Source: Xiphias gladius
Taxonomy: Eukaryota; Chordata; Actinopteri; Istiophoriformes; Xiphiidae
Assembly: GCF_016859285.1 (NCBI RefSeq)
Contig: NC_053411.1
Coordinates: 6,173,001 to 6,237,000, forward strand
Direction of reading: 5' to 3'
Length of the DNA stretch: 64,000 nt
The notes under the pieces were generated by a model that was not told the DNA's origin, ran no database searches, and saw only the letters and a list, made by a program, of their open reading frames with translations. Shown piece after piece: positions 13,166 through 63,733 of this stretch (position 1 is its first letter; every line of letters begins with the position of its first letter). The position numbers and the translations under genes were made by a program.

Positions 13166-13233
<68 letters not shown>

Positions 13234-13270
13234 GCATCTACATATATATATATATGTACACAAACATATT

Positions 13271-13301
<31 letters not shown>

Positions 13302-13334
13302 GCATCTTCCTATAGATATATATATATATATACA

Positions 13335-13388
<54 letters not shown>

Positions 13389-14360
13389 TCTACATATATA
13401 TATATATATGTACACAAACATATTTATATATATATATATATATATATTATACATACAGTTAGTTGGGTGTGTTCAGCCTCTTTTCTTACATTCTTATACA
13501 TAAACTGTTTTAACTGCTGCTACAAATAGTACACAGTTTTCCAAACATCCAATTAAATCGTTCTATGATCTTATATCAACTCACTTTGCTGAGCTCCACA
13601 GAGTGTTTGATCTCCTCTACTTTCTGGAGCCTGTCCTGGATCATCTGCTGAACATCAGCCTCGATCCTTTTCATCTGAGTCTGAAATATCACAACAAGAA
13701 TTTAAAACAAAACTGGAGTCAAAGTCCAAAGGCTGCCAAAGTATTTGATGGGATGATGGCAAAATGATGATGAGTATTTTAGGACCTCACCTTTTTCTCA
13801 TGACTCTCTCGCTCCACTGGGACGGTATCATGACAGCGGTGGTTGGTCTCGGTGCACAGCACACACACACACCTCTGGTCGCTCCGGCAATACAGCTCCA
13901 GGAGCCTTTGGTGCCTTTTACACATTCTGTTCTCCAGCATTGCAGTAGGTTCAATCAGCTTGTGAATCTTCAAGGTGGCAACTCTCAAGTGAGGCTCCAG
14001 GTGACTCTCACAGTACGAAGTTAGACACACGAGGCAGGACTTATAGGCCTCAGTTTGCTTCCTGACGCACACATCACAATATATGGTATTTCCTACCATC
14101 GACATAATGCCGTTCTGCCTTCTTGCTCGGATCTGCTCTGACATTTCCTTGGCAAAATAGTTTTCACAAAGCTCTGGACGGCCCTCAAAGACTGTGTGAC
14201 ATTTGGGACAGCTGATGGCAAGGCTGTTGTCCCAGTGTGAGGTGATGCAGGTGAAGCAGAAGCTGTGACCACAGGGGATGGAGACTGGCTCAGAGAAAAC
14301 ATCCTGACAGACGCAACACTGAAACTGCACTTCTGACAGGAGAATGCTGGGGGAAGCCAT
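10650..14360 (-). CDS. Bloodthirsty-like TRIM E3 ubiquitin ligase (RING, B-boxes, coiled coil, PRY-SPRY)
   Basis: Complete 550-aa TRIM protein. Coding exons: 13791-14360, 13585-13680, 12850-13083, 12361-12508, 12207-12233 (27 bp), 11187-11332, 10650-11081; all phases join. The RING (C3HC4) has C15, C18, C30, H32, C35, C38, C51, C54; this domain recruits E2 enzymes for ubiquitin transfer. Two B-boxes follow (about 95-124 and 147-177), then a coiled coil (about 185-310, [20 protein letters not shown]). PRY starts near residue 359 with the LDP motif ([13 protein letters not shown]) and SPRY carries WEV ([10 protein letters not shown]) and LDYE ([10 protein letters not shown]). The exon plan, the [18 protein letters not shown] segment and the MQQYAVDVHLDP junction are typical of fish bloodthirsty-related (btr) TRIMs, a large expanded family often linked to antiviral response. 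The exact orthologue cannot be named. The start ATG lies 3 nt after a splice acceptor (exon edge 14363), so the leader is spliced. Confidence 0.93.
13140..13460. repeat. Compound (CA)n/(TA)n microsatellite with an internal higher-order repeat
   Basis: Lies in the TRIM intron between exons 13585-13680 and 12850-13083. A (CA)n tract at 13171-13219 passes into long (TA)n tracts. A block of about 60 bp containing TGCATCTACATA, (TA)n and GTACACAAACATATTTATA occurs at ~13222-13282 and again at ~13373-13433, so the array has expanded by block duplication as well as slippage. Confidence 0.85.
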
Positions 14361-14961
14361 GACCTGAGAAATTAAGAAAGAATATCAGTGTTAACTAATT
14401 ATGAGTCACAGAGGAAAAGTGTTTTGGTAACATTACCAATCACTATAAAAAATAAAGACATTAACAAAACATATGGAATAGGCCACAGAATTTTTCAGAG
14501 CTTTTGTCCTTATTGTTGTTAATGAAAGCACTGTAAGTACTTTTATTACAGCCAGAAACATCTAAACTTACTTATCATTAACTTTAAACAAATCACAGCT
14601 GCCCACTGGCCAAAGTCCAGCTGCATGGTCAATGACTCAGCTTCTCTTTCACTCTCAGAAATTCACTCTAAGTTCCACTTCAATCATGGACTGAGTACAC
14701 CCATTAAAATCCAAATACTAACATGCATGCTCCTTTCCACCCGGTGTAATTCATCAGCCTTCAAGTGTTTTAATGTACCATGCTCCCATAATTCGCTGTA
14801 CACCCCACCAGGAGATGAAGACTAATGGCTTCAAATATTAGTCCCCTATATTCCATTTTACCTGCTTGGCACAAAACTAAGCACAAACATCACTGAAATG
14901 ATTGTATCTGTTTAATCAAAAACTTAAACCTACCAGTCTGTTAAGTTTGTTTTGATCTTAC

Positions 14962-37269: not shown

Positions 37270-39854
37270 TGTAGGTGGAGTTGTATCGGATGGTCCGCCA
37301 ACTTCACCTGAGGACTCAGGGTGGCCAAGAGTCCAGTGTTGCTCACCCAGATGTCGTAGGAGACAGGTATGTGTTTGAGAGAGGAAGAAAGAGGAGTGAG
37401 TGAAATCTTCTGCATTTCAAAACATTTCCATAATAGATATTTATCACATTACTCCACTATATTCACATTTCACATATTTTTAAACAGTCATGTCTTTTCA
37501 TTTATCATTTCTATAGATGTCTCGGACCGTGCCTGGCGTTGTGCCCCGAGTACAGCTTCATCCTGGAGGATGAGCTGGGTGTGTGTGGCTGTGTGTTGGG
37601 TGTCTTGGATGTTCGCTCCTTTGCCAAACGGTGCCAGGCCAGCTGGATGCCTGCCATGAGGGACAAATACCCACCCAAAGGAGGCAACACACACCCCAAC
37701 ACACAGGTGAATACGAGGAATAGAAGAAGCCAAGAAGTCACTGAACATCCACTTTTTAACAATAGCTATTCTGTCGTTCTCAACAGCACAGGAGTCTAAC
37801 CATTTTAGAGACAGACACTCAAACCCAACACACATGTACAATCATGAAAAACAAATGTTTAGACATATCAGTACCTGCAGTCACACAATCTGGATCCCTC
37901 TGTGGTGAATCAATAACCCACTGGGAGTTAGATGGCACACTCAGGTAAACAAAGCGAATGACACACACAAAAACACACACCTACACACACACACATACGG
38001 ATACACTTAGACACACACAGACACAGATTAGACTCAATATTTTTTTACAGAAATGTAGACACAACCTTAGTATTCTCTCTCCACCTCTCCATGTTACTAC
38101 GGGGTTGTAGTTTCTGGATCAGCAGTGCACCGCATTGGCAACCAGATTTGGCAATTGTGTTGCCAGGTGCTTTTAGCCCAACAGTGATGCAGTTGTAAAA
38201 AGAAAAAAGAAAAAAATAGATCAGTAGTCATGGTAGAGAAAAGCCAGTCATGACCAATCAAGTTATTTTTCCTCTCTGCAATGACAACCTTTTGGTAAGT
38301 ACACACTTGTGAATATAGAGCACTTTACATTAAAGTATCTTTTTTGAAAACGGGAGGATGTACTGTAACACACCTGGTTACAGTGTTGCTGTTGCCCATC
38401 ATGACAAACAGTTCAGTGGTCTCGGGTAAAGAGCCAAACAGAACCGGTGGTGAGCAACAGAAACAGTCACTACCCGACATCTGTGGAGAATTTATCTGCC
38501 CACTCTGTGCGTCATGCTGCACACTGACAGTCCCACTTTGCGTGACTATCATTTACGCTGCAGCCACAGATGTATAAGCGATACAGTTGAAGGATTTACT
38601 GTTTACTGGCTAAACAGGGTTAATGAACTATCACCAGTGTTTTATGTAATCACTTAGTACTGTAAGTATTTTGTTACCCATACATATATCTGCCTTAATG
38701 TGTATTTATTACATAAAAACTAGACAAAGAAAACCTCAAGAAAAAATTCTTACCAGTTTCTCAGACAGGAAGTACATTAGACCATTCACAGAGGTCTGTG
38801 ACTACACAATAAAAGCTGATGCAGCAGAGACTCTGTTGATGTTACAAGGCATTGAATGTATGCTCCAAAATAATTTGGTGTTGGTTGCTGGGTAACTTGA
38901 AAGCACCCTAGTCTAATGAGTTTGTAAGGTGCAGTCAGTCAAATATGGCTCATTAGTAAGATCTAGTGGCAGCTGTAGGAAACTACAACAACATAGGAAT
39001 ATAGAGTATACGGTTCAAAAGCCGTTTTCCTCAACAAGCACCAACAAGAAAAATGTCCACCACCCAACAATCATTTAGGCTGGACAGGACCAAGTTATCT
39101 TTCAGGATCTTTATCTATCATCAGCAACGCACTGTGAGAACATCCTTGTGTCCTCTATGTAGGACTTGATCCAGCTGATGGAGGAGGACCAGGGTGAGTA
39201 CCCGGACTCTCTCCTCTATCACTTCCCCTCTCAGCTGCGACTGGATGCCCTGCCTGAGCTAGTGGACATCAGCGTCAGCCGCACCCTGCTAACCGCCCTC
39301 CTCACTGCGCTCAAGGCAAACGGTAAAGACAGAGTGTTGAGTCGTTGTGTGTTCGTATGTATGTGTGTTCCTCATTTGCTTTAAACTCCGGTCATGGAAT
39401 ACTAAAAGTGCTATTAACCCCCACGTCTGACAAAATGAGGATTATGATGGTACAATCTGAAATGTTAAAACTATTAGTTGCTCCGTGCTCACCGGCTCAA
39501 CACTAAACAGAAGAGCAGAAAAATACGGGGGGGTGGAGCAGTTACAAAGTAACACTTAACATACTCCATTAATGCGAGCAGGATTCAAGTGGGAAGACAC
39601 TAAATTCATTTAGTTGTAAATCATTTAACAGTCTTGAAACAACATTTTTTTAAATGATTTTTTTCTTTTGCGTGTGTGTGTGTGTGTGTGTGTGTTTATT
39701 TGTGTGTTTGTGTGTAGGTTCTCAAGGTGTGTTCTGTGAAGTGCAGCCAACGGACCGTCAGAGGCTGGAGTTTTTGACAAAACTGGGCTTCCTGGAGATC
39801 CTCAGAGGAGAAGCCAGGAGCAGGGAGGGAGTGGTGATGGGAAGGCTGCTCTGA
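23399..39854 (+). CDS. oga-like (mgea5l): Protein O-GlcNAcase paralogue (GH84 hydrolase plus acetyltransferase-like domain)
   Basis: Removes O-GlcNAc from Ser/Thr of nuclear and cytosolic proteins (family function). Seventeen coding exons, all in phase, total 2,427 nt (808 aa): 23399-23441, 26018-26069, 29810-29907, 30692-30822, 30932-31103, 31200-31298, 32211-32480, 33927-34013, 34256-34728, 34923-35097, 35927-35983, 36347-36432, 36564-36668, 37275-37366, 37517-37706, 39163-39322, 39718-39854. The GH84 core shows [20 protein letters not shown], the catalytic Asp pair in [27 protein letters not shown] and [10 protein letters not shown], so active-site residues appear intact. The helical stalk includes [19 protein letters not shown] and [10 protein letters not shown]. 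The C-terminal acetyltransferase-like domain has [13 protein letters not shown] and [19 protein letters not shown]. Human OGA is about 916 aa; the shortage is in the linker after the catalytic domain. Vertebrate fish carry a second OGA gene, and the divergence suggests this is that paralogue rather than canonical oga. Confidence 0.95.
23442..26017 (+). other. Intron 1 of the O-GlcNAcase-like gene with GAT-rich low-complexity tract
   Basis: 23,775-24,260 is a degenerate (GAT)n/(AATGAT)n tract on the plus strand; the long open frames read through it on the minus strand are by-products. A (CT)n(CA)n compound microsatellite lies at 25,100-25,191. A perfect 8-bp inverted repeat (GAAAGCTC...GAGCTTTC, 25,578-25,598) lies in a non-repetitive stretch. 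No exon is seen. Confidence 0.7.
26505..27050 (+). repeat. Dispersed percomorph repeat (copy A, direct)
   Basis: Recognised by a chain of phrases typical of a widespread fish repeat: CTGTCTGTCAGTCCACCACTTT, repeated motifs meaning 'ACTTTGGTGATC', 'GATGGATTGCCGTG', CACCATCATCAGGTCAAAAT, GTGCTAATTAGCCAATGTTAGC, and CACTAGCATGGCTGTAGA. Internally it consists of diverged copies of an ~80-bp unit followed by a unique tail. It lies in intron 2 of the O-GlcNAcase-like gene. A reverse-oriented relative lies at 50,215-50,760. Confidence 0.75.
28500..28830. repeat. Two (GT)n microsatellites
   Basis: (GT)n at ~28,521-28,560 and a long tract at ~28,741-28,826, separated by unique DNA with a GA-rich patch (28,700-28,725), in intron 2 of the O-GlcNAcase-like gene. 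Confidence 0.9.
28941..29193. mobile_element. Short inverted-repeat (MITE-like) element
   Basis: The left arm (28,941-28,998: GGTCCATAAGTATTTAGACG, GGTGACACAATT, GAGATGTGATTGAAG) matches the reverse complement of the right arm (29,095-29,193: GTAAATATTAGGACAGTGAC, ACACAATTTTCG, CATCAAGATGTG). The left arm lacks a segment present in the right arm, including CCGCAATGGATTTGAAACAA. The centre contains CTTTCAGCTTTAATTCAAG, seen in a common fish DNA-transposon-derived repeat. There is no coding capacity, and the family name is not assigned. Confidence 0.75.
35281..35780. repeat. (TATAG)n pentamer array with degenerate and inverted segments
   Basis: Pure TATAG/GTATA repeats at ~35,288-35,332 and ~35,668-35,692 are linked by degenerate derivatives, including reverse-oriented CTATACTATAC at ~35,372-35,383. 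The array lies in the intron between exons ending 35,097 and starting 35,927 of the O-GlcNAcase-like gene. Confidence 0.85.
37182..37268 (+). repeat. (GT)n tract abutting a 3' splice site
   Basis: About 43 GT units end 6 nt before the exon that starts at 37,275 (TGTGTGTCTGTAG|GTGGAG). No pyrimidine tract separates the repeat from the acceptor. Confidence 0.95.
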
Positions 39855-39860
39855 ACATAA

Positions 39861-41458
39861 AACACACACACACACACACATCTCTCACACACGAACACAT
39901 ACACGCGCACTCACATGGTCACACACATACTGAGGGAGTTAGAAAATTCTTAAGGGACAGTCCTGGATTCCTGTGAGTCTGTGTGGCAGTAATGGGGATG
40001 AGCCCAGAGATTTCTGAGGGATTTACAAAATATAAAATAAGCTTTGAATTTAAACCTTGAGCAGAGCTGTGCTAATCTTCCGTGGCTTCTACCCCTGGCT
40101 GAGGATTACAAGATTTAGTCAAGTTTCAAGGAAGTCCGTAAAAGAATAGGCTGATATGGGAGCAGAGTGCTAGATCACAGCAGCAACAAAGTTCTCCTTT
40201 GTGGGACGTGTTATTCAATCATATGAATATTTTTTTTTAAGTGGCTATAATCAATATTTTTTAGTAACAATGGATCACATGACTTCTTGTATGTGAAGGG
40301 GGTTGATCATAGTGACTTGGAGAGCTCACAGAGAAATATCATTCCACGGCAGTTCTCCTCAGCTCCGCGGCACGTTTTAGCATCTTTCAGCTCATTGTTT
40401 TGTTTTTCCGGCCCACAACTTTACTGTTTCCTTCACTGTTGGAGCCTTCAACAGTTCCAAGCGTCTTTTTTCAGCGAAAAAGCTTGGAGAGTTGGATGTG
40501 GCTTCAAGGATCTACCCTGCTGAAGTGTCCCTAAGCAAGGCCCTAAAACCTTACCTTAGTCAGACATGACCTCTGACCTATCTGGAGAGTGGCAAATATT
40601 AAACCCACAAAAACCATGTAAAAAAACATGTGGTTTTATGAGGGGCTATGTGCCAGACTCTTTCTTGGCCATAATTAGTAAGTTACTTCAAGTTACTGTG
40701 TGGTTGCCAGACAGGCAGCGGAGACATTTTGTCTTTTGTACAGATTAAACAAAAGAGATATAACTTGTTACTTAGTGAACTTTTAGTGGTGCAGGTAGGT
40801 TGATTTTGTTTCCTTTGGACGGAGCCAGGCTAGCTGTTTCCCACCATTTCCAGTCTTTGTGCTAAACTAAGCTACATATTTAGAGTACAGACATGAGAAT
40901 AAGGGTATTTCCCAAAATGTCAAAATATTCCTTTAAGATCACATAAAATAATCACCTCCTGATCATGACCACAGTTAAGCTGCTATGGTCCGTCTTGTGC
41001 TCTGCTCCCTCTCTGCTTCGTGTAAACAATCATTTTTTTAATTAAAAGTTAGGATGTTGTTTTTCTAGCTCCTGTCCTGTTGGTTAAATGGTCTGCTAAC
41101 ACGGGACCAGACCCAGGCACAGTGTCACTGTCTACACCTGTTTAGGTTAGATGAATGTTTACATGCATGAAGAACAAATGATTGTGTGGCTGTTCACATA
41201 GTGGGAGTACATGTTCTGACACTGACACAAACATAAACATATAATTTCAATGGAATTCTCTAACATGGCAACATTAATGAAGATCTTTTATTCGGCTTTT
41301 CTCAGCCATCATACAGTAGCTGTAAGGTCTTAGGAGGAAACATAATAAAAACGTAAGTGCATGCACTCTAAAATTCATCAGAAAAAACAAAAAAGTATCA
41401 AGTTTTCAGATTTCTGCGCATGAAAACGATCATTCGGACATATAAGAGACATAAAACA

Positions 41459-41511
<53 letters not shown>

Positions 41512-43106
41512 TCACACACACGAACACATACACGCCAAGACTCACATGGTCACACACATACTGAGGAGTTAGAAAATTCTTAAGGGACAGTCCTGGATTC
41601 CTGTGAGTCTGTGTGGCAGTAATGGGGATGAGCCCAGAGATTTCTGAGGGATTTACAAAATATAAAATAAGCTTTGAATTTAAACCTTGAGCAGAGCTGT
41701 GCTAATCTTCCGTGGCTTCTACCCCTGGCTGAGGATTACAAGATTTAGTCAAGTTTCAAGGAAGTCCGTAAAAGAATAGGCTGATATGGGAGCAGAGTGC
41801 TAGATCACAGCAGCAACAAAGTTCTCCTTTGTGGGACGTGTTATTCAATCATATGAATATTTTTTTTTAAGTGGCTATAATCAATATTTTTTAGTAACAA
41901 TGGATCACATGACTTCTTGTATGTGAAGGGGGTTGATCATAGTGACTTGGAGAGCTCACAGAGAAATATCATTCCACGGCAGTTCTCCTCAGCTCCGCGG
42001 CACGTTTTAGCATCTTTCAGCTCATTGTTTTGTTTTTCCGGCCCACAACTTTACTGTTTCCTTCACTGTTGGAGCCTTCAACAGTTCCAAGCGTCTTTTT
42101 TCAGCGAAAAAGCTTGGAGAGTTGGATGTGGCTTCAAGGATCTACCCTGCTGAAGTGTCCCTAAGCAAGGCCCTAAATCCTTACAAGCCTCAGAGCGACC
42201 GTTCTTAGTCAGACATGACCTCTGACCTACCTGGAGAGTGGCAAATATTAAACCCACAAAAACCATGTAAAAAAACGTGGTTTTATGAGGGGCTATGTGC
42301 CAGACTCTTTCTTGGCCATAATTAGTAAGTTACTTCAAGCTACTGTGTGGTTGCCAGACAGGCAGCGGAGACATTTTGTCTTTTGTACAGATTAAACAAA
42401 AGAGATATAACTTGTTACTTAGTGAACTTTTAGTGGTGCAGGTAGGTTGATTTTGTTTCCTTTGGATGGAGCCAGGCTAGCTGTTTCCCACCATTTCCAG
42501 TCTTTGTGCTAAACTAAGCTACATATTTAGAGTACAGACATGAGAATAAGGGTATTTCCCAAAATGTCAAAATATTCCTTTAAGATCACATAAAATAATC
42601 ACCTCCTGATCATGACCACAGTTAAGCTGCTATGGTCCGTCTTGTGCTCTGCTCCCTCTCTGCTTCTTGTAAACAATCATTTTTTTAATTAAAAGTTAGG
42701 ATGTTGTTTTTCTAGCTCCTGTCCTGTTGGTTAAATGGTCTGCTAACACGGGACCAGACCCAGGCACAGTGTCACTGTCTACACCTGTTTAGGTTAGATG
42801 AATGTTTACATGCATGAAGAACAAATGATTGTGTGGCTGTTCACATAGTGGGAGTACATGTTCTGACACTGACACAAACATAAACATATAATTTCAATGG
42901 AATTCTCTAACATGGCAACATTAATGAAGATCTTTTATTCGGCTTTTCTCAGCCATCATACAGTAGCTGTAAGGTCTTAGGAGGAAACATAATAAAAACG
43001 TAAGTGCATGCACTCTAAAATTCATCAGAAAAAACAAAAAAAGTATCAAGTTTTCAGATTTCTGCGCATGAAAACGATCATTCGGACATATAAGAGACAT
43101 AAAACA

Positions 43107-43157
<51 letters not shown>
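39861..43157. repeat. Tandem duplication of a 1.63-1.65-kb unit with (CA)n boundaries
   Basis: Copy 1 (39,861 to ~41,508) and copy 2 (~41,509-43,157) are nearly identical: offset 1,630 bp at the left and 1,647 bp at the right. The shift comes from about 20 bp present only in copy 2 near 42,185 (AAGCCTCAGAGCGACCGTTC) and 2 bp missing near 42,275. Few substitutions are visible (for example 40,611/42,230 region and 41,021/42,667). Each unit begins in CA-rich sequence with TCTCACACACACGAACACAT and ends in a (CA)n array. The unit holds no gene. It begins 7 bp after the O-GlcNAcase-like stop codon, so copy 1 probably forms that gene's 3' untranslated region. Confidence 0.93.
40625..40940 (+). repeat. 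Dispersed teleost repeat inside duplication copy 1 (also 42,275-42,588 in copy 2)
   Basis: Contains GAGATATAACTTGTTACTTA, GGAGCCAGGCTAGCTGTTTC, CCATTTCCAGTCTTTGTGCT and AATATTCCTTTAAGA in the order known from an abundant non-coding repeat of percomorph genomes. The second copy arose from the tandem duplication, not from a separate insertion. Confidence 0.65.

Positions 43158-44662: not shown

Positions 44663-44736
<74 letters not shown>
44663..44736. repeat. (GT)n microsatellite in the urea transporter 3' region
   Basis: About 37 GT units, ending 10 bp below the stop codon on the minus strand, so it is transcribed as (AC)n just after the coding sequence. Confidence 0.95.
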
Positions 44737-44745: not shown

Positions 44746-47178
44746 CTACACATCAGTGCTTTCTTGCTCGGCATTGTTCCCAGCTGCCCATTGGCTGCGA
44801 GAGCGCAGGTTGTGTTCAGGGGCCATAACTTGACCAATAGGGATGCGGTATGCTGCTAAACTGCCGGTCAGCAGCAACATCAGTGTGGCTATCAGAGTAG
44901 CTGCCCAACTGCATGCTGGGAGACCCACCTAGGCAGAGAGAATAACAATGAATAAAAATGAGTGAAGTGACTCAAAAGGTCCAAGTACAATTTATACGTA
45001 TGTAAATGTATATGCTCTGTACTATATATGTGCAAAGAGTTTAGAGTTCTAGCATTAACCCAATATTCCTGTTAGGTTTTTGATGCCAATTTAGACAGGA
45101 CTCTTCAAGTTTAACCATTTATTTCAACATGACATTCATTGTTCTTTTGCGGTGTGGATGCTCATGTGCTGCTCTGGAGCGAATCTTAGCAAGCTTGAGA
45201 TACACAATATCTGATGAACACAACCACAGAGAATACGTATCCTGCAACCACACCTAATGCTAATACTAAAGGAGGCTGAGGAGATGGAGGGGGTTTTACT
45301 GCAGAAGGCAGGTCATGCAGGACTTCGGTGCCTGCTTGAACAACCGCAGTGCTCCAGTGCATAAAAGTGTGTCAGGGCGTGTGGCGTTTTTCACATAAAT
45401 GTGTTGTTTGAGGGTATGTAAAAGTTCATATAATATTGTAGCTGGTGTTTTTTTTCTTTTCATTTGGTTTTATGCATTGCTGGAGGATACATGTTATATT
45501 TTTTGGATGTTTGACATATGAAGGACAAGTAAATTATTTGGGGGGGGGGGGTCCACTGTATGGTAACCAATGTTTTTCCCAAGTGTTTTATTTCTTGCAC
45601 AAGACTGTGCTAGTTAATGAAAGCAAGAATCCACAAAACAAAATGGACCAGACCTCTTCAGTGTGTGAAATGGAAAAAAAAAAAAAAAAAAGAAATGGAA
45701 AAAATGTGTTGGAGCTTCATACACACATGGCTTAAAGTGTGTGTACTTACAGTTCCCAGCAGATTCCTGAGAGCGATGTCAGCATATGCAGAGAGGAAGG
45801 CTGCAGGCAGAGGAGAGGAGATTTAGGCTAAATATATCCTCCACACACTCACTCTGTATCTTTTCCCAGGTTGCTGATGTACATACAGTGGGATGAACAG
45901 ACAGAGGTTGGCTGCAGTTGGTCTGAGACCAATTTGCCTAATATGAATAGATTAGCTCCCTGCAAAACTGGTAAGTATTCATGTCCATGGTGCTCCAGCT
46001 GCATTTTCAGATGTGTTGTGTGTATGTGTGCACATGTAATTTTGTGAATTTGTCTGTTGTCAAGAGTGAGAGCAGAAGTAGAGAGGGAGACAGGAAAGCC
46101 CAGTCTAAATAGATCAATTCAATCAGGCTTTGAATTGACAAAATTTTTAACCTCATCTCTGCATTACAGCCATTCAGCACAGAGACATTGTAAAAAGATG
46201 TGAAGATGGGTTTAGATAAGTAGAGAGATGCAAAGAATGTAGAGTAAAACGAATGGGCTGAATAAGCTAATTTGTTTTATTTTACCTACTAGCTGTTTTT
46301 AGTAGCACCGCTGAGTTTAACCAGGCTGTAGGACCCAGTACTCCCCGTTTACAAAAAAGAGCCCTTTCCCTCCTTCAGAAGGAATGACTCAGATTCAGCA
46401 TGTGGTTGATTCAGCAGAAGAATGAGTTCATGATTTACTGGGAGGAGCAACGGTGCAGTAAGCGACATCTTGCTGCCTGGAAGGGCTCAGGCAAATTAAA
46501 TAAACTCACAACATGATGCATCACAAAGTCTGGTAAGATGTGAAACAAGTTCTTCCCCAAAAAGTACACAGAATAGTAACATTCAATGCAGTAAAGTTCA
46601 AAGGGACCTGTTGAAATTGTAAAGGAAGTTTTGAGGGCCATGGCTGAAGGTTGAAGGATTTAAAAAGGTGAGGGCTTAGCATTGCTCCCAACCCTTTCCT
46701 ATTATTGTCCATTTGACATGCAGTGCATTGCATTTGATATCTGTTTGTGGGCGTTCAGTTAAATTAAAGTCAAGATTAACAGAAAGAGAGAGAATGAAAA
46801 TGGCTTTGACTTTTTCAGAGATAAAGAGAAAGATGTGATTATTTGAATCCGCTGGACAGAGACAACAAGAGCGACTGAAGTGGAATGTTTCAGAACCATG
46901 GACAGAGCATGTTGATGGAGCTTGATTTTCTCTGTATCCCTCCAGTGGCTGAGTACAGTAATACTGCCAAATAAAAATAAGGCCAACTCATCTGAAGTAG
47001 AAACTTTTTTTTTTATTTTTTAAAACCCTGAAAATAATGATCATACAATTCTTGTTTTTCTGTCAAAAACCTTTAAAAAAAAACCCCCCACGTTTTATAG
47101 TTAAGAATACTACACAGTTATATTTGCTACTAACACTGTCATTATGCACTTGGAACAACAAATAACACCTGTGTCTGG

Positions 47179-47247
<69 letters not shown>

Positions 47248-47422
47248 TGGGTGTGCGTGTGCGTGTGTGTTGTTTTTTTTCACCGCTGGCAATGGCAAAG
47301 AGGTGGGTCCTCCAGCTGAAGGTGAAGAAGAGTCCTCCGATAGCCATGCAGCCCAGAGCTCCATTAAACCCTGACAGACCTGAGTACAGAGAATCATGAC
47401 ACACCGCCACGGATAAACCTGC

Positions 47423-47510
<88 letters not shown>

Positions 47511-50500
47511 AATACAAACACACAAACACACAGATCATAATTATGTCCTGCTGAATCTGCAGTACTAGAATTATCCATGTGGTGGTGGTAGGCACATACT
47601 GTTGTATGGTTGCCTTCATAGCTGTATTTATTTGTGTGTAACCTAATAAGGACATTTCTTGATTTTCCTTTTTTATTGCCCCATATTTACATAGGAGGGA
47701 TACAGGTATCTGATCCAACATGGAGGATATTTTTAATACTTGCTAAAAACATCATTCTGTTGTCTGCAGGTCTTTGGAGTGTTTATGGGATATTATGTAC
47801 CATCATTGCTAAGTTGGCCCCTTTGTCTGTTATATTTGTGATTTTCCCAGTTTGGAACAGACCATTTGTGTTCAGCAAAGTAACGATGGCAAGTAGGGCC
47901 AGGCCAAGGGGAAATGATAACAAGGACCCTGCCTGCCTCCAGTGAGCTGGAGTTACACATTCACATTCACTTACACATTTACATTCTTAAGTCCTGATTC
48001 CATCATCCAGTCGTTTCGCTGCAGAGTATTGATGCGGTAGGTGGATGAGCATGAGGTCAGTGTCTCAACTCTGACTCGCGTCCATTCTAAACAAACGCCC
48101 CACTGTGATGCTGAAGCTATAAGCAGACTGCACAGGGGGGCACGTTGACCCTAATACATCTCGGCGAGTCCAGAAGCACTGTCCTTTACTCTGCTGGCTT
48201 TCAGCAGTACCTGCACCGTGTCCTTCAACCCACATGTGACAGGGAATCAGAATCAGCAAGACTAGGCTACTGAGTTCAGCTGCAAAGGCCATCAAGCTTC
48301 AATCAGAATCAGAAAGCACGATGCTTAAATATTTACATTTGTAAGTATATTTAATTCAGTTCTTCTTTTCCGTATCCTGATGTTAATCTGAACTCTTGCT
48401 CAAATTTTGTCCCGTTTCGACAGGAGGTTAATGCTTTCGTCTTTCTGACTTAATTTCCATTGGTTGCATATGGCATGAGCAAACAAAGCATTCTGATCAG
48501 CAAAACGTGTTCATTCCAGAGTTGCATTGCATTCAGCTGTACATGGACACAAACCTGCGGTGTGTGTGTAAGCAGAGGCCGTCAGCCCTGTTGCCCCACC
48601 CAGGTTCATAATCGGCTGCCACTGTTCAGCTGTGGAAAGGAATGAGCCTTAAACCTGCTCACTGACTGTTTCATTGATGTATACCGCACTTATGTCTGTG
48701 GGAGCATGAACCTTTCAGCATAAATTGTGTATTTTTACCTTCCTGGGTAAGAGTAATATAATAAAAAACTACTGAACACTGTCTGACTGCGGAGAAGAGT
48801 GACCCTCTAATCCTCCATTTGCTCTAGCTACATATATTATTTACGCACACATGCAGCATGCAGACAGCGGAATGTGCTCCTGGGGGAGTGGGAAGGAATT
48901 GTCCTTTGCTCCTTAGTCTGTTTCCATTGTCATATGAACACATTTCCACTTGGGGGACTAAAATTTTGTGATCATTTTACAGAAGCAGTCCTGTCACACT
49001 GGCCTTTGCTGCAGCTGCTCCACCCTGCATCTTCCCTGTATTAATACTGCAGGATTTTCCAAAGAGTTCATCTGCAGTAACTGTAAATTTTGGAAGCTCT
49101 TCGGTAGATAAATGATCCTCAGGCTGTGCCATGATTGATTTCCTTATTACCAGGCATTGTGGGCTGCAGTTTAGCAGTCTGGTCCTGAAGCAGACTGACC
49201 ACACCCCAGTACTGCCTCCTCACTCTGTGTGTCTGGTGGGCTACTCTGCCATCCTCTCCCTCTTTCCACTCCTCTTTCACAGCTACCCCTCCTGCGGTCT
49301 TTAAATGCTCCAATTCCCTCCGCACTCATCTCGTCGCTTCCTCATTCCACACTTCATTATCCAGCTCGCCGTCCTTCTGTTGTTCATTGTCACCATTTCC
49401 CTTTGTTTCTCCCTCACGGTACTTCCCTCGTTCCCTTACTTGCTTCCTAACTCCCTTCATCACATCCCTCTGGTCTAGTTGTTTCCTCCCCGTGTAAGGG
49501 TGTCATTAAAGACTAATGGCAATGTGGGCGGGAGGCCCCAGAGGATACTAAAATTTTTACTGTTTTTCTACTATGTGTGTGTGTCTGTGTGTATGTTTGT
49601 TCGTGAATCTCTCCCAGTATGATGTTGTCTATGCTAATAGAATGAGTCAGAGAGCTCTTCATCATATGAAGCCCAATATATCCTCTCCTCTCCTCCAGTG
49701 GCTGCCTGCATCACACCACAGTGACTGGCTGCGGACTAAATGGAGGACAGTGTAATAGGTTGGAATGAAACACTGAAATGAACTGTACATAATATCTCCT
49801 GTGGTGTGAGTGGGTAATGGCTAACTTTGCATTTGGGCCTTTGCTCTTCATTCAGCCGGTAAATCCATCATTGTGTCCTTTGATGCCTGCGAGGGGAAAA
49901 CTGTTTGTAGATGCAGCTAAATGGATGAGGGCCCATTTGTTAACACTGTCCAGATATCAGCAAAATGAGCTGTAGAGGGAACTGTTTGTTGCTCACCATT
50001 TCAGAATTTTAAGTGTTGCACTGCTTTGTGTGTGTGATAAGTCTCTATTTACATCAACATTTCTGTAGTTAATAGCCTCATTTCAGATGTTGTATTGGCC
50101 TATTTCTGTAACTCTCTTTCTCTGTGAATGCTTTTACTGCTTTTAATAATGCGTGCCAAGAATTTCTGTATTTTATCCTACTAGGATTACCATTAGGTCA
50201 ATGAAATTCTCCGCTCTTTTTAGAAGTTAAATCCTTGCTAATATGCTAAAGTGCTAAAATCAGTGTTCTAACACCATTGCAATGACAATACCACCATTTA
50301 GTTTACCATTTTAGCACGCTAACATTTGCTAATTACAACTTAAAACAATGTACAGCTGAGGCTGATGGGCATGTAGATAGTTTTGCAGGTATTTGGTCAT
50401 AAACCAAATTATTTAAAAAAAAAATTAAATTTTGACCTGATGATGGCACTAGAAGGAAACTCAGGGGATGTCTAAAATAAATAAAATTCCTTCTGAAGGT

Positions 50501-52451: not shown

Positions 52452-52493
<42 letters not shown>

Positions 52494-52505
52494 CACACAC
52501 ACACG

Positions 52506-52567
<62 letters not shown>

Positions 52568-55500
52568 AACAGACACCCACACAAACACATGACACATGCA
52601 CACCCCCACCTTCTCTTTCATGAAAAGGAAGGAGTATCTGGGGGGGAGACTGTTAAAAAAGACGGTGTCAACAATACCCTTGGCACACAAACATTTTCAG
52701 ATCTTTTGCTCATTCTTGGAGTCCTCTTTCTTCTCTGTTGCATTTATTAGCATCTTTCTCTGATGCAGCTTTTTCTCTTTCACTCAATTTATGCCCCCCG
52801 TTTTTTTTTCCTCCTCGGCTCTTCATCTCTTTTCTCTCCTCTCCATCTGACACTTTTTTCTTTGTCTCCTGACACTGATCCTTCTTTTCCCCAGACAGGA
52901 TTAAGTTTTGAATCTGACCTTGTAGCACCTATTCACACTTTTAACTTTCCCACTCTGTACTGCGGCTTCATTTGTTTCTGTGCGTGGGTGTGTTTTAGTG
53001 CATTTACATTTATTCAGGGCTACCGAACTCCATGGAAAAAGATACACCATACTGTACATCAAATTTCCATATTCTGCTTATGACCACCAACAAAAGTGAT
53101 AATGAACTTGCTCATCACATTCTACCAAACAAAGTTTGAAAACTGTCCTAACAAAAAGTGACACTAACAAGAGTAACAATATAAGAAGCAACTACAAGAC
53201 AAAAAGAAAGAATAAAGAGACCTAAAGTATTATTAAATGAGAGGAAACACAGAGGTAAAAAAGGGGGATAAACACAAGAAAATTCCCTTTATATTTTTGA
53301 GGCTGTAGTTTTTAATAAATGTTACTCAAACAGGAGTAAACAGTCCATTTCTTGGGGACAATTGTAACTGTGGATTAATATACATTTGGTACTCTAATGA
53401 GTATATACAGCAAGACTGTGTGTGTGATTGACTCCAAATAAACAACAGTGCAAATGTTTATCATAATGAAGGAACACGCAGTCCAACAGTGGGGCTTATT
53501 GATTTGTTCTTAATAGTTTGTGGAGTTCTGTTGCACAGAAGAACAAGCTTTGTCAGACTAGGTTCCAATCATAATTAGTTTTGATCTTTTTATGGGATTT
53601 GTTGACAGTAAGAAAAGTATCAAGTGTCTCCAGCCTTACTCCTTTCGGCTCTGTTGCCTACACAATCTCATTACGGCCGCATCGCTTTGATCATTTTCTC
53701 GTCACACTGTTGTTTTTACTGCAGCAGCGTGCGTGTGTGTTCCCACCGCTGTAAGCATCGGTCCAGAAGTTTGTCCAAGTGTGTGTATGTATGAGCTCAC
53801 TCCCACCCCTCTGTTATTTTACAGTATGACTCATAGCTTTAAACACATGCACAAACACGCATCCACACCAAAGTATTTTAGGACACTGTATTGTACTTAT
53901 AGCAGAAGACGGAAGCAGGGGACTAAAGTTTTAAATTCTCAGCATCTCTTATTCTGTTTCTCTCTTTCGCTCTCTCTAACTCCCTGAATAGTCACAGTGA
54001 GGCAGATGTAAAAGGCATACGTAGCTACAGGCCTGCGTGTTTCAATATAAGCCGGTGGTTATCAGCACCCTGGCTAATTGCTGTGTTTCTTTTGGAGCTG
54101 AGCAGCCGCCCACAGGCTGCTGCTGCCTGTCTTACAGCTTCATATTTAAATGTGCTGTTGACATTTTGTCTTATTGCCAAAGGGATTCATAAACCTCACC
54201 CGATTTTAACCTCGGTAAAACGTACTGTAATTTAACATCTGCCATGCAGGCAGCTAATCCTGCGATCTATTTGAGGTCCTGACTGATGGTTTTCTAAATG
54301 AACATAGTACATGGTTTCAGTAACAAAATAAGGCATGGTAAAGTATTGTATGCTTTTATGCTTTTATTTTTGTCATCTGCAGCCAATAATAATTTCCCAC
54401 TGCTAAGCAGTACAGTATAACAAATGACTCGAGGAATTAGTAAAGTAAATGTAAACAATATGAATTGATGTGATTTAACTGTCAGATTATATATTGTGCT
54501 TGTAAAAGGTGCTCCAGCCATTTACTATTGTACATCTAAATTGCAATATTGTTTGGAGTTTGAATGTTCTCAACATGCCTGCACAATTTCCTCCTGGTTT
54601 TCCTCCACAGTCCATGAGACAAGACATGCAGGCTATTTGGATGGTGTGAATATGAATGTGAACGTTTGTCCGTCTAAATGGTAATACCTTGCTTCTCACC
54701 CAAACTCAGTTGGGATAGACTATAACCCCCCGCGACCATACAAAAGGTAAATGGTTGTAGATAATAGATGGATTTCCAAGTTGGGGAACTCACAAGAGAC
54801 ATTAAAGACAGAACGGGGGGTGTATCCTCAAAAATACTAGGGGGTTCTGGGTCAAGCTCTAAAAATCCTGGATCCTACCTCCACATAATGCAACCCCATA
54901 CAATATTTTTGTTAGACCCTTCCTACATGGTTAAAGCAACATCTTTCAAACTCCATGCACAGAAATTTGTTGGAAGCTTCTTGTTATAAATGTTGTCTCT
55001 GAGCCCAAGCTGAGATAACCCTGACGACATCATTAGGGGTTATTTTGTCAAACTTCACAAAGCCCCTTCAGAGCCCCAGAAGACATTGTATTACATGAAT
55101 GTTCACAGGATGAGTAGTGCTCCATACAACTAGTAGTTTCCCTGGATGTAATGATACCTAAGACGACCTACCTAAGTGCGATGCTAGCACTGAGAAATGT
55201 GTGGTGCCCATAGACACTAATGAAATCTCAATGTGAAACTTAATCCCTGATTAGTTCAACCTAAAAACAACACCAACTGTAGCCAGGTATGAGGTCAGGG
55301 TTGCAACCTATGTAAAACAAATGTTAAAAAGTAACCAGGTGTTGGCTTGTATTACATTACCACAAATGAATCCAATAATATTCCCCCTTTTACTTACTCT
55401 CCCACTCCTCCCACGCAGACACATGAACACACGGATTGAGACTCACCAGCCAACGTGCCAACTGCTGATCCCAGCAGACCGTGGATGGCCAGCAGGGGTG

Positions 55501-58500
55501 AATAGAGCAGAACGGCTCCCAGGATGAGGAGGGAGGGCCCCAGGGCTCCACAGGCAAAGATCTGACCCACACCAAGAGGTATGCCACGTATCACCTGCAT
55601 GGTCAAGAGAAAGGAGTCAGAAAATGGAGGCGGATTTGGAAAGGAGATCACACTATGAAGCATATTGCACATACGATAAGATACAATACAATACAATACA
55701 ATGCCATACCATGCGATATGATATACTGTCCCCTTAGGGAAATATTTGGGCTGGTGTTGCTGCATTTAACAAATGTCATTCTACATTTTACATACAGATT
55801 ATGTAGCTATGTGACAAGACACCCAGATACTAGTATTCATATGTACATACATTCAAGTGCCGTTAGTAAAAACTTAAAAACAACATATTTCACAACCCGT
55901 CAATCCCAAAAAACTCACTTTGGGGACTATGGCCTCTATGGCTCATACAATGTCCTTACTATTTAACATGTTGATAGTAGAAGGCATAAATGAGTTTTTA
56001 AAATTATTGAGTCGCCACTTGGCTACTCTATATCGTCTGTCTGAATGTAAAAGCTTGTACTCAGAGTGGAGGACCTGGGATGGATCAGTGAGCATTCTCT
56101 CCTAGCACGGACTGTTCCTATATAGATTGAAGGGACTGGTATTCTATCTTCCCTGTAACTTTCATGGCGGTCTGAATAAGACGAGCCAGCCTAGATTTGA
56201 ACTGTACTGGGAGGTTATCATACCATGCCTGTATCCAGTACCTGTTTGGGCTTTCCAACACTGCCAAGTAGAACAGATAAATACATTTCTGGTTAATCCC
56301 ATACACTCTGAGCCTTCTCAAAGAGTGCAACCTCTGCTGTAGCCTGCAGCATAGGCTGTCAACATGGGCTTGCCAGGTAAACGCCAGGCTACTTATAGGA
56401 GCACACCTGATTAATGAGAGTGTTGTGGATAATCGCACAGTCATACACCGTCTTTTCAGTTTTCTTCACATTCAAAATGAGGTGGTTAACATCACACCAA
56501 TGTACAAAATTCTCCATTTCAGATTAGTAGGGTGATATATCATTGTGTCTGTACAGTAAATTCAGGATAGTGTAATCAGAGAATTTAAATATGTAGTTAT
56601 CCGGGTGTATGCACACACACTTATTAATATATACAATGTGAAAAGCACTGGAGAGCTCACACAACACTGGGTGGTACCTGTACTGATTGATTTGGTGCTA
56701 GAGAGGATGTTATCGACCTTTACATGCTGGATACAATCTGTCAGAAAAGAGAGGCACCATTTAATAATAAAGGGCTTGAGATGCATCATGATTATACACA
56801 AGTCTTATATGCAATTATGAAATCCCAAGAGAAGAGACACACTCGCAAAAACATGACAACATATGTGAAATCACCCAGTTAAATACACACACACTCTTAC
56901 ACACACATATGCTGCATTCCCAACTCTCGGTGAGAAGTTTCCATGGCGACGTGATGGGTGCACCTGCCTTTATTTACAAGTCATAAATGGTCTTCAATTA
57001 TATCGCTGCCTCACCACCAACCGTTTGAGCGTGCCTGCACGATTCTGTGCTTGTACGTGTGCGTATGGATGTGCGTGTTTGTGTGCAGTAAGATTAAATA
57101 CGCTGCTGCGGTAGTGCAGCCGGAGCGCCATCCTCAGCAGAGTGAAAGCTCAAGACATTAAATATAAATAGGACTGACGTCATCGTCATCTCCAGAGAGA
57201 ACCATGGGAAAGAGAAGGAGGGAGGAAATGAAGATGGGTGGAGGAAAAGGAAGGAGGAGAGCAATAGAGAAGTAACATGGGATGAAAAGGGGAGAATAGA
57301 GAGAGAAGAGGAGGAGGAAAGAGAGAGGTGAATGGGGGGGTGAGATTGTGTCACAAGGACTATAACAGAAAAAAATCTATGACTCTGTTATGTTGTCCTT
57401 GAAAATGTGGTTAGATAGTTGTTTATTGTAAACTGAAAAGGGATTAAAAAAAAGACAGAGACGATTGAAGAAGTGATGGAGGAAGAAGAGGAAGGAGGAG
57501 GAGGAAAGCCATTTGCGTAGCAGAGCAGAGAGATGGATAGAGACTGGGGAGAGGATTATCAGAGATAAAAGTAAGATTTAGAGGTTTCAGATCTCCCAAG
57601 TAACAAACCAAAGGGAATTAATAACATGAAAGAGATATCATTTACAAGGCGAGAGACAGACAGAGGGAGGGAAACAGGAAGGAAAAAATTTGGAATTTTA
57701 AAAAGAAAGAAAAAGAGATTGAAGGAGGGGTTAGAAATGAGGGAGAGACTCTGAAATAGAGTAAGAAATATGAAGAGAGAGAAATAATCTCAGGTGGAAG
57801 GGCTGAAACTTGTGGAAAGTAATTATTTAGCGTGAGGGACATACTTTGCCACGGGATATGATGCTTGTTAATAGAATCCTGTGTAAATCTTGGCTCTATA
57901 TTCAGGACACCTATCAGCGCTTAGAGGGTTTAGTCAGCGTAGCTAATCTAGTTTGCACAACTTCACAGTCAGTTTGCAGATCATTGTATGCAGAAATACA
58001 CTATACAACATCCTTCTCTTCTAACACACACAATCGCCATATTCTAAATAAACCCAACCACTTCAGTCAATTGTCTTTGTCGGATAGTTTCACACTGAGA
58101 AGCCCTCTTATACGTCTAGTGACGTGTCTTCAGTGTTATGTTTCAAGAGGGTTTTTCCAGGAAAAAACACTGAAGCAAGGTCATACTGGAGACACAGAAA
58201 AGGTGTTTTGTCACCATATAATAAGTATGATCATTTACATCTACAGTCAGGCTAATGTAGTGGATGAATGTAATGAATTTTACATTCAGCCTTGATGCAG
58301 CAAGGGTCTCGGGGTGGAACTGAACTCGGGACATGGCGGTTAGGTGGTCCTAGACCACTGGCACATCTCAGATGATGTTCTAAAATGCTGTATTTTTTAT
58401 TTCTCTTTGTTCTCTCAGGTACCACATTTGTATCTTGTTACCGTTTACGGTTTTTGTTTCCTCTCTGCAAAATGCAGATGTTCTTTTAAGGTCAGCCTTG

Positions 58501-61500: not shown

Positions 61501-63733
61501 CTACCGGCAAGTCCCAGCGGTCCAACACTGAGGAGAGACCACTGAACAGAAAGACACTGAAGAAAGGGAAGGGGGACAAAAGAGTGGATGGACCGATTAT
61601 ATTTAATAAAATGGACGTTACTTACATGTTGCAATGAAATGTGCAAACTTAATTTGTACAGACAGGTGTGTTTCAAATGCAGAATGAATGCAGAGCCCTT
61701 CCAAAATGGGCTCACTTTCGCATCGATTTTACAAGTGCAAGTGAACTGGAGGGAGAACGATGACAATCTGTAGTGAGAAGAGATCTGCTGACATATTTTC
61801 TTTAGCTATAAGTCTTGAACTCTGTGTAAAAGGTCTTAATATTTGAAAGTTGACAAACTATAGGAATAGTGTCTTTTGGTGCCCTTGGAGACAGGAGCGG
61901 ATCCCACTGTTTCTAACAGTGACTCACAACCACCGTGGCCCAAAATACCACGAATTTATTCAGAAAACAGTTAGATGAATCATTTTTTTGTCATGGTCAT
62001 ATGTAATTTTGAAAGGCCCAGGTCAGGTGGTTTAGGGAACCCAGTGTAAAATGACCTACTTATTCATTTAGTTTGGAGGAGTTGTGGGGCCTGCCATGAC
62101 TGTCGAGTTGTGTGTGTGTGCGCGCGCGCGTGTGTGTCTCACCACGTAGCTGACCCCAAGCAGACAGGCAGCAGCAGCCACCAGTACCAGTCCCCAGCCG
62201 AGCTAAACACTCCCATCAGCAGAGACACCAACATGCCGTTAAAACCATGGAGACCTCCTGACACCTCAGCGCTAAACACATACACACACATCCCCACACC
62301 GAACAGGGAGATACACATATTATTACGTCTTGCTTTTTCTATTTAGAAGACAAAAGAAGGCAACATTACTGCACAGCGATGTACATTAAGATCAAAAAAA
62401 TGTTTTTTGTTTTCATGACCAAAACACTCATTAGCATAGCTTTTTATGGGTCCTCATGAAACCAGTTGTTCAGTTTTAATGAGAAAAGGCCCTAGGGTCA
62501 CACTAAATATGTTCAAAATGTCAGACAAAAAACATTGGTGGCCCCAAGTCAGCTGGAATTATTTTTTAATGCAGTAAAACAAGGTTGCCTATTGGCATAT
62601 TATACTGTGTGTGGCGTAAATATTGGGACAGGGACTGAAATAAGAATTGCTAAACGGTGGTTGTAGGTGCACACAGGGCTTTGGTCATGGAGCTGTTCTT
62701 CTCACGAATTTCAAGTAGTGGCCTGAATCAACTTTAGTCATACGGGCAGAGTAAATTATAGGCTTGTGTTTTTAATGAGGGTTCGATTGTTTAAAAGGGA
62801 CATTTTTTATGTTGTGTGCTTATATAAATACCTAGATAATTACAAATGGACAAATAATTGAGTGCATTTTTGAGCCTATATACTATTTGTGTGTAGTTGT
62901 TCATATCCGTCCACCTGTCTTGTCCCATGACAACAGCTGTTAGTGTAGAGACCAGTATACCCAGAGTTCCCAGCAGACCCTGCCAGGGGGAAGCCCAGTA
63001 CAATGCAGCCAGGATGAGAGCGCCGCTCAGCGGGTTGTTGGCTAGAATCACTCTGGTCACCCCTCTCAGGCCCCACACTGCCAGCTGCAGCACAAATGAC
63101 TTGTCTGAGGACAGGAAGAAAAACATGGACTCTGAAAACCACACTTTATAGCAATGTTGAGATGATTAATATTTCCAGTTTTGTTTTTCACAAATTCCTG
63201 AAAAAGTGGAACTAAAGAAGCAAACTGCAGCACAAAACTTGTTCTCAGTTGGATTTCTTGATGCCAATTGAGGACTTTATAAAAGAATCAAAATGGGATT
63301 TTAATGATAATTATATTCTATGTGCAACAGCATTAACCCTGGGAGTTGTGTAATGATTACATCTGCATTTTTAATGGCAATACAAGCATTTCAGAGTCAT
63401 TTATGTATGATTATGGCAGTTTAACACATTTCAAGTGTTTGAGAACTACCTCTATTCAAAACGTTCTGTCATTAATCACATTATGAAGGGACTAGATGAA
63501 TAATGCATTTTTTTGAAATACATTTTTAAAAAGGTCATGCCATTTTATACTTCAAAGATTAGAAGTAAGACAAAATTCAGGATGTAGCAGCGTGGAGTCG
63601 TCCTACCCTGCATGTACTCATTCAAGTGCATCATGTCCCCAGTACACAACAGCAGGCTGCTCAACACACGCCGGCTGAGGCTGGCACGACTCCTGCTGGC
63701 CTCTTCCACCTCTGCTTTTGTTTCCATCCACAT
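44746..63733 (-). CDS. slc14a2-like: SLC14-family urea transporter
   Basis: Facilitative urea channel of the plasma membrane (family function). Coding exons in transcript order: 63607-63733, 62915-63104, 62143-62271, 61367-61556, 55447-55594, 47284-47418, 45751-45800, 44746-44928; phases all join and give 383 aa, close to the ~390 aa of single-unit UT proteins. Diagnostic segments in order: [111 protein letters not shown]. The two halves show the internal repeat of this fold. The signature LPxxTxPF reads LPVAVFPF in the first half and LPACSWAA in the second, so the usual Thr is Val/Ser and the second PF is AA. The start is the first ATG after an in-frame run at 63,736; MWM... could begin at 63,727 instead, or an upstream exon may exist. 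Whether this is UT-A type or the divergent fish UT-C type cannot be settled. Confidence 0.92.
47181..47508. repeat. Paired (GT)n and (CA)n tracts flanking one exon
   Basis: GT-rich 47,181-47,272 and CA-rich 47,423-47,508 lie either side of urea transporter exon 47,284-47,418, at 11 nt from its donor and 4 nt from its acceptor. In the minus-strand transcript the order is (GU)n, exon, (AC)n. Confidence 0.95.
50215..50760 (-). repeat. Dispersed percomorph repeat (copy B, inverted)
   Basis: The reverse-complement relative of 26,505-27,050: it carries TTTTGACCTGATGATGGCAC (complement of the CATCATCAGGTCAAAAT phrase), GTTTTGCAGGTATTTGGTCATAA, CATTTTAGCACGCTAACATTTGC and TAGCCATCCCTAGATCCACGC. It begins with the nested 'CTAGCATGG'-side edge at its right. 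It lies in a urea transporter intron. Confidence 0.75.
52455..52564. repeat. Long interrupted (CA)n microsatellite
   Basis: About 110 bp of CA units with GCAC interruptions at ~52,487, ~52,505 and ~52,509. Confidence 0.95.
56105..56805 (-). mobile_element. Decayed non-LTR retrotransposon (reverse-transcriptase C-terminal part)
   Basis: Minus-strand frames, broken by stops and shifts, carry the order of motifs seen in common fish LINE polymerases: [32 protein letters not shown] (the 'TGxPQGxxLSPxLF' box, degenerate), [19 protein letters not shown], then [33 protein letters not shown] and [15 protein letters not shown]. The catalytic YADD box is missing or unrecognisable. It is a 5'-truncated, inactive copy inside a urea transporter intron. 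Confidence 0.85.
57180..57830. repeat. Purine-rich (GA/GGA) low-complexity stretch
   Basis: Two strongly purine-biased blocks on the plus strand (~57,185-57,350 and ~57,430-57,790) with GGAGGA and AGAGAG words, on the antisense strand of the urea transporter intron. Confidence 0.8.
58545..58880 (+). repeat. Dispersed fish repeat
   Basis: Carries GGCCACTTGGGGGCAGCGGA, CATTAGCATTCATTTGGAGT, ATGTCTCTGGTGACCAG and, at its end, GAAAATATTGATTGGTGCAG plus CTTTAAA, phrases that recur together in percomorph genomes. No coding capacity; family not assigned. Confidence 0.6.
62110..62137. repeat. Compound (TG)n(CG)n(TG)n tract next to a splice donor
   Basis: Lies 4 nt from the donor of urea transporter exon 62,143-62,271, so the transcript reads gtgagacacacacgcgcg just after the exon. 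The alternating purine-pyrimidine run including (CG)5 is Z-DNA-prone. Confidence 0.9.

Follow-up and report, generated by a model that had tools for sequence, protein, structure and literature searches.

An exon of a urea transporter gene is enclosed by two complementary repeats, a GU-rich tract directly before its acceptor and an AC-rich tract directly after its donor, and these are predicted to pair across it. Our best explanation, in which we have about even confidence as a whole, treats this caged exon as an ordinary coding exon that a teleost-like SLC14A gene has kept from its ancestors. It would be mainly included, with a distant branch point, a GU tract in place of the pyrimidine tract, and leakage that depends on repeat length.

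The caged exon and its flanking tracts

The window, by which we mean the whole 64-kb stretch of DNA that was analysed (C12:6173001-6237000), carries a urea transporter (SLC14A family) gene on its minus strand. Its genes and repeats suggest a teleost. Seven coding exons were placed by spliced alignment with human UT-B as the query, and the reading frame stays open through them until a stop codon directly ahead of 44745. The gene model comprises these seven aligned exons to the stop; the start codon and the N-terminal part lie outside it. When joined, the second-half exons matched the Pfam UT family at 8.2e-37 and solved urea transporters at up to 1.8e-76.

The caged exon (47284..47418, minus strand) was located by tblastn and spliced alignment to human UT-B. 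It is 135 nt long, runs from phase 1 to phase 1 and encodes a segment of the second half of the channel with the motif GLSGFN. It is open, and its similarity to human UT-B is 48%, against 41–58% for five other exon hits of the gene. The borders given in the preliminary description were borne out by the alignment to human UT-B and by a 135-nt exon in each of two paralogues. The neighbouring coding exons lie at 55447..55594 (upstream) and 45751..45800 (downstream, 50 nt), both on the minus strand. Skipping, as had been proposed, would join 55447 to 45800, keep the frame and remove 45 amino acids.

The GU-rich tract occupies 47423..47532 (minus strand) in the upstream intron and ends 4 nt before the exon. 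Tandem Repeats Finder gave it 110 nt, 55 copies and 89% matches, which is longer than the approximately 85 nt first noted. The AC-rich tract in the downstream intron (47170..47270, minus strand; 101 nt, 50.5 copies, 87% matches) also exceeds its earlier estimate of about 90 nt. It starts 13 nt beyond the last exon base, that is, 11 nt after the donor GT as originally reported. The pure cores are 70–71 nt of GU, about (GU)35, and 64 nt of AC, (AC)32.

With a stroke marking the exon border, the acceptor reads ...GTGTGTGTGGCAG/GTTTATCC and the donor reads GCCAGCG/GTGAAAAAAAACAACACACAC. Only 45% of the 22 nt from -25 to -4 are pyrimidines, so the acceptor has no normal pyrimidine tract, in agreement with the preliminary description. 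We compared it with 13 other acceptors located by homology in the window (one of the 14, at 63105, is placed one base off; the sequence gives an exon start of 63104). Twelve of them had 64–100% pyrimidine in the same interval. The thirteenth, at 62271, also had 45% and belongs to the other caged exon of this gene. The GU tract at the acceptor of 47418 is half uridine and free of AG.

The stretch from the acceptor AG to the nearest upstream adenosine (47421..47512, minus strand) lacks any A. Apart from the A of the AG, the 94 nt upstream of the exon contain no adenosine and the nearest one is 47513, at -95; an adenosine branch point would therefore have to lie at least 95 nt upstream. From the adenosine positions, the nearest region able to hold one is probably 47513..47560 (minus strand). 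This distant branch point, the second caged exon and the published precedents for such tracts were all absent from the preliminary description.

The segment 47150–47560 (411 nt) was folded and compared with 100 dinucleotide-preserving shuffles. Its predicted energy, computed like the others for protein-free RNA, was -226.4 kcal/mol versus -160.2 ± 7.0 kcal/mol for the shuffles (z -9.5), and none of the 100 shuffles was as good. In the computed fold the exon is closed off by a GU:AC stem, with about 90 GU:AC pairs predicted at 10, 20, 28 and 37°C; the computed duplex has an energy of -172 kcal/mol. The CAG of the acceptor has a computed unpaired probability of at least 0.73 at 20°C and above, and of 0.46–0.47 at 10°C. 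Several bases of the donor, GCG/GTGAAA, which is weak as judged by eye, are predicted to be mostly paired. The hairpin around the exon is thus strongly favoured in silico. That the tracts can pair and loop the exon out, as first suggested, agrees with this model. The first interpretation is thus partly supported as a whole, and its further proposal that the hairpin could favour skipping or back-splicing is a fair hypothesis.

Two other repeats occur in the same transcript. One is a pure (AC)36 at 44665–44736, about 9 nt past the stop codon, so the mature mRNA should contain an AC tract able to pair with the GU tracts too. The other is a long GU tract (52455–52589, minus strand) in the middle of the same 8-kb upstream intron, which could act as a competitor for the AC tract.

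A 129-nt exon in the first half of the same gene (62143..62271, minus strand) is caged in miniature. It encodes the corresponding first-half segment, with GLHGFN. GGTGTGGGGATGTGTGTGTATGTGTTTAG precedes it and GTGAGACACACACGCGCGCGCGCACACACACACAAC follows it; the acceptor side is GU-rich (62274..62300, minus strand) and the donor side AC/GC-rich (62107..62137, minus strand). A duplex of -35.7 kcal/mol is possible between the two flanks, and the minimum-energy structure contains the stem around the exon. The overall stability of the region is unremarkable (z +0.72; 153 of 200 shuffles did as well), and this smaller cage is weak on energy. Its acceptor has an A at -10; the A-free stretch is therefore not common to both caged exons.

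We considered whether the two cages were inherited through the ancient internal duplication of the channel, and rejected this idea. The introns before the two exons are 7 codons apart in place and differ in phase (2 in the first half, 1 in the second), and the one paralogue with a reading of both counterpart exons lacks either cage, over 89 nt on the upstream side of its first-half exon.

Paralogues, tract placement and other cages

A protein search of the 691-Mb genome gave six matches at three places, which are this gene (C12) and paralogues on C20 (L032) and C19 (L034). The second-half exon was read in L032 and both exons in L034. In both paralogues the homologous second-half exon is also 135 nt with the same borders, and the first-half exon of L034 is also 129 nt. 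Across the 150 nt that flank each of the two 135-nt exons on both sides, no GT or AC run reaches 8 nt (longest 7 nt). Around the 129-nt exon of L034 the longest such run is 4 nt in the 89 nt upstream and 150 nt downstream that were covered. The acceptors of the two 135-nt exons and the 129-nt exon have 68, 68 and 73% pyrimidine, with the nearest A at -13, -23 and -12, respectively. Since two paralogues keep the 135-nt exon with the same borders and without the tracts, the cage is unnecessary for defining the exon. Either the exon predates the cage or there were two separate losses of the cage, and the former is simpler. The open exon, its similarity to human UT-B and the tract-free paralogues together argue that the caged exon is normally included.

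The window contains 15 tracts of 24 nt or more. We re-placed these at random, in position and orientation, in 200,000 trials and counted a hit when a complementary pair flanked one or more of 12 gene-model exons. With both tracts at most 15 nt from the exon ends this happened in 4.5e-5 of the trials, and with both at most 50 nt away in 7.8e-4. This null is too kind, as tracts are not uniform and favour splice sites here. The pattern was also chosen after the fact. If 250,000 exons are assumed, the uniform model predicts between about 1 (15 nt) and 9 (50 nt) exons per genome with GU before and AC after.

Such numbers bear on the reading that the tracts are neutral microsatellites with no measurable effect. 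The abundance of tracts in the window, the 1 to 9 such exons expected by chance and the absence of tracts from both paralogues are all consistent with it. Yet these tracts take the place of an entire pyrimidine tract and move the nearest upstream A out to -95, a change that is hard to see as neutral, and we regard the neutral reading as very unlikely.

Near splice sites the tracts share one strand orientation. Of 14 acceptors, 3 have a GT run of at least 8 nt no more than 50 nt away and none has an AC run of that length; of 11 donors, 3 have such an AC run at that distance and none has a GT run. The 8-nt threshold matters to these counts, as 7-nt runs are present at further sites. Eleven exons had both sides annotated. 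Two of them carry a GT acceptor and three an AC donor, and two carry both (one-sided Fisher test, 3/55 = 0.055). Complementary tracts at both ends were found in none of the 11 annotated introns.

On the plus strand a GU tract (39672–39717) forms the acceptor of the exon starting at 39718, the last aligned exon of an O-GlcNAcase-like gene (29.8–39.7 kb). The intron before it has no AC tract at its 5′ end. Unlike the caged exon, this acceptor has an A at -20. Because GU tracts recur at acceptors without a partner, as at 39718, a GU acceptor seems to be tolerated.

Just downstream lies a tandem duplication of about 1.65 kb with 98% identity (39862–41508 and 41490–43156). Its ends and joint carry AC tracts (39862–39880, 41460–41508 and 43108–43157), as if it were microsatellite-mediated. 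The minus strand at 10653–14384 carries a TRIM-like gene with RING and SPRY domains and a B-box match below its cut-off.

We searched the whole 691-Mb genome with a strict cage pattern (GT12-CAG, 105–135 nt, GTGAG, at most 30 nt, AC10) and used the reversed pattern as the control. The pattern gave 12 overlapping matches at two distinct places and the control gave none. Both places were confirmed as coding with Pfam, one as an M13 peptidase exon and the other as a cadherin exon. The M13 peptidase exon (C7:4422616-4422796) follows a short intron filled with GT and has a long AC tract about 20 nt after its donor. It keeps its own pyrimidine tract between the GT tract and the exon, and a strong hairpin is predicted around it. 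At the cadherin exon (C462:697223-697395) a 111-nt GT tract touches the acceptor CAG and an AC run follows the donor. The nearest A beyond the AG is at -116, yet the exon encodes a recognisable cadherin segment.

When the exon length in the pattern was changed to 135–165 nt, three overlapping matches were obtained, all at the same cadherin exon, with five for the reversed control. With a GTAAG donor there were 13 overlapping matches at one place (C15) and none in the control. The C15 place is not coding, with stops in all three frames. In total, two of three distinct cage places are coding exons. The exon in the window itself fits none of the strict patterns, having a GTGAA donor and GGCAG at its acceptor.

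GT on both sides at the strict-cage spacing gave 27 overlapping matches at seven distinct places, with one match in the reversed control. Two of the seven (L035 and L036) were read and neither is exon-like. The opposite order, AC before and GT after, occurred at chance level (204 overlapping matches versus 203 reversed). A loose cage pattern gave 17,618 matches against 11,598 reversed, but these are overlapping positions and were not counted as evidence. GU/AC cages recur and are rare at the strict stringency, and the strict patterns give no sign that they outnumber other combinations such as GT on both sides.

Relation to known splicing systems

Fish introns with AC and GT tracts that bridge the intron were described by Lin et al. 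2016 (Genome Res., doi 10.1101/gr.181008.114), as cited in excerpts of PMC7404189, PMC9198270 and PMC9508853; the excerpt of PMC7404189 speaks of minigene-tested structures, rich in AC and GU, at both ends of some fish introns. The caged exon resembles these in having AC- and GU-rich tracts at its splice sites and a predicted GU:AC structure, and we count its lack of a pyrimidine tract as a further likeness. In the bridging class the GU tract is reportedly at the acceptor end and the AC tract at the donor end. The tracts of that class stand at opposite boundaries of one intron, whereas the partners around the caged exon stand in two introns and enclose the exon.

Accordingly, neither intron around 47418–47284 has AC and GT tracts at both of its boundaries, and intron bridging was rejected for both. 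The upstream intron starts GTGAGTCTCAATCC... without an AC tract, and the 3′ end of the downstream intron has a normal pyrimidine tract and no GU tract, the longest GT run there being 7 nt. The complementary tracts are predicted to pair, though across the exon. Introns of the bridging class are reported to splice without U2AF2; on this point the caged exon shows its missing pyrimidine tract. Intron bridging was likewise rejected for the two introns around 62271–62143, where no partner tract is present and the preceding intron starts with an AC run of only 7 nt. A short-intron bridging pattern (GTGAG, AC tract, 40–70 nt, GT tract, CAG), which covers one narrow spacing, had no match in the whole genome.

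Complementary pairing of intronic repeats has been proposed to join exons and to aid alternative splicing (Lian and Garner 2005, Bioinformatics, as cited in an excerpt of PMC10027321). In both cases complementary intronic repeats could bring neighbouring exons close and loop out the intervening part, and the caged exon has such repeats in both flanking introns. It differs in that its repeats reach up to the splice sites and occupy the place of the pyrimidine tract, and alternative splicing is hypothetical here; the paralogues and the conservation argue for a mainly constitutive exon.

The UG-tract acceptor of CFTR exon 9 and TDP-43 are named in an excerpt of PMC12276007 and among the references of PMC13174678. 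Like that exon, the caged exon has a UG repeat directly before its acceptor. In CFTR exon 9 the UG repeat reportedly leads into a short U tract and has no long AC counterpart, and skipping at acceptors of this type depends on TDP-43. The caged exon has no U tract, as GTGTGTGTGGCAG runs to the exon, and it does have an AC partner. A CA repeat in an intron is also shared with eNOS, for which CA repeats and hnRNP L were linked by Hui et al. 2003 (a reference in PMC13174678). The CA tract of the caged exon, where protein binding would be hypothetical, starts 13 nt after the exon.

Other excerpts give further context. In humans, the neighbourhood of splice sites is enriched in pUG repeats of 12 or more (PMC12276007), excess TDP-43 leads to skipping of constitutive exons with short UG motifs near them (PMC11163724), and long spacing between branch point and acceptor weakens splicing in fission yeast (PMC9508853). 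A study of splicing-affecting repeats reports length-dependent binding of TARDBP to GT repeats and of HNRNP-L to AC repeats (PMC13174678). Among the titles and abstract openings that searches listed, none dealt with this exon or with GU/AC cages across fish exons; coverage of subscription journals was thin, which makes this weak evidence of absence. Complementary AC/GT repeats at the ends of fish introns are already in print, as are complementary intronic repeats that lead to alternative splicing; here the pairing crosses an exon. What is unusual is that a missing pyrimidine tract and a putative distant branch point occur together, with tract-free paralogues available as controls.

Inclusion, skipping and other outcomes

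In the best explanation, the microsatellites that both paralogues lack sit at the exon flanks, (GU)n at the site of the pyrimidine tract and (AC)n just after the donor. The exon would be included in most transcripts through a branch point at least 95 nt upstream, and the GU tract would stand in for the pyrimidine tract. Competition between the GU:AC hairpin and GU- or CA-binding proteins (of the TDP-43/CELF and hnRNP L type) would let some transcripts lose the exon, to an extent that varies with repeat length. Most of the minor product would be a clean skip with in-frame loss of 45 amino acids, very probably giving a dead channel. A single-exon circle may also form, but this is less likely. 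Evidence for the mainly included state comes from the paralogues, from the conservation and open frame of the exon, and from the GU acceptor at 39718, which has no partner. Three points count against this explanation. The predicted hairpin is so strong (-172 kcal/mol) and so local that skipping could become the major product; the weak donor is partly paired in the model; and frame retention in one reference genome is compatible with a young, harmful allele.

The first of these points leads to exon looping, in which the hairpin forms once the AC tract is transcribed and hides the exon, resulting in substantial skipping and a transporter that lacks 45 amino acids. We consider this possible and would not call it probable. 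The predicted stem of about 90 pairs (z -9.5) and the missing pyrimidine tract would favour it, as would the order of transcription, since synthesis of the AC tract ends long before that of the next acceptor, 1.5 kb farther on. Against looping, helicases and hnRNPs frequently prevent repeats of this sort from folding in cells, and the exon is conserved and present in the paralogues. The idea itself is published, both for complementary repeats (Lian and Garner 2005, via PMC10027321) and, in an excerpt of PMC7404189, for skipped exons flanked by stem-forming GC-rich sequence.

By analogy with the fish intron-bridging class, the hairpin might instead help the exon by juxtaposing its acceptor and donor, which would offset the missing pyrimidine tract. 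The caged exon would then be a cross-exon counterpart of the fish AC/GT introns, in which GU and AC tracts replace the protein bridge of exon definition. Such an exon could be recognised although it lacks a pyrimidine tract and its adenosine branch point lies some 95 nt or more upstream, and each half of the transporter gene would have one. The two caged exons of the gene do have the lowest pyrimidine content of the 14 acceptors. Complementary tracts also lie across 2 of 11 annotated exons versus 0 of 11 annotated introns, and two more caged coding exons exist in the genome. However, the GU-tract acceptor at 39718 has no partner, the caged M13 peptidase exon has its own pyrimidine tract, and the paralogues do without a cage. 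The strict patterns give no excess of GU/AC over GU/GU flanks, and a long stem would separate the branch point from the AG. We therefore find a cross-exon bridge doubtful.

Back-splicing into a 135-nt single-exon circular RNA would be the least probable outcome; 135 nt is short for such a circle and the acceptor has no pyrimidine tract. The circle is possible in view of the predicted flanking complementarity, its one support, since pairing between intronic sequences on the two sides of an exon is a known determinant of back-splicing (PMC7404189, section 4.1, and PMC9198270, both in excerpt).

On the best explanation the cage looks recent and is probably a minor splicing quirk of an already described kind; it is not a proven switch. 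Two tract-free paralogous exons and the partnerless GU acceptor of a neighbouring gene can serve as controls here, which makes the locus well suited to showing cleanly whether an exon gains or loses by GU:AC pairing. If the repeats act, inclusion of a channel exon would depend on two fast-mutating microsatellites, and urea transport could differ between individuals by repeat length.
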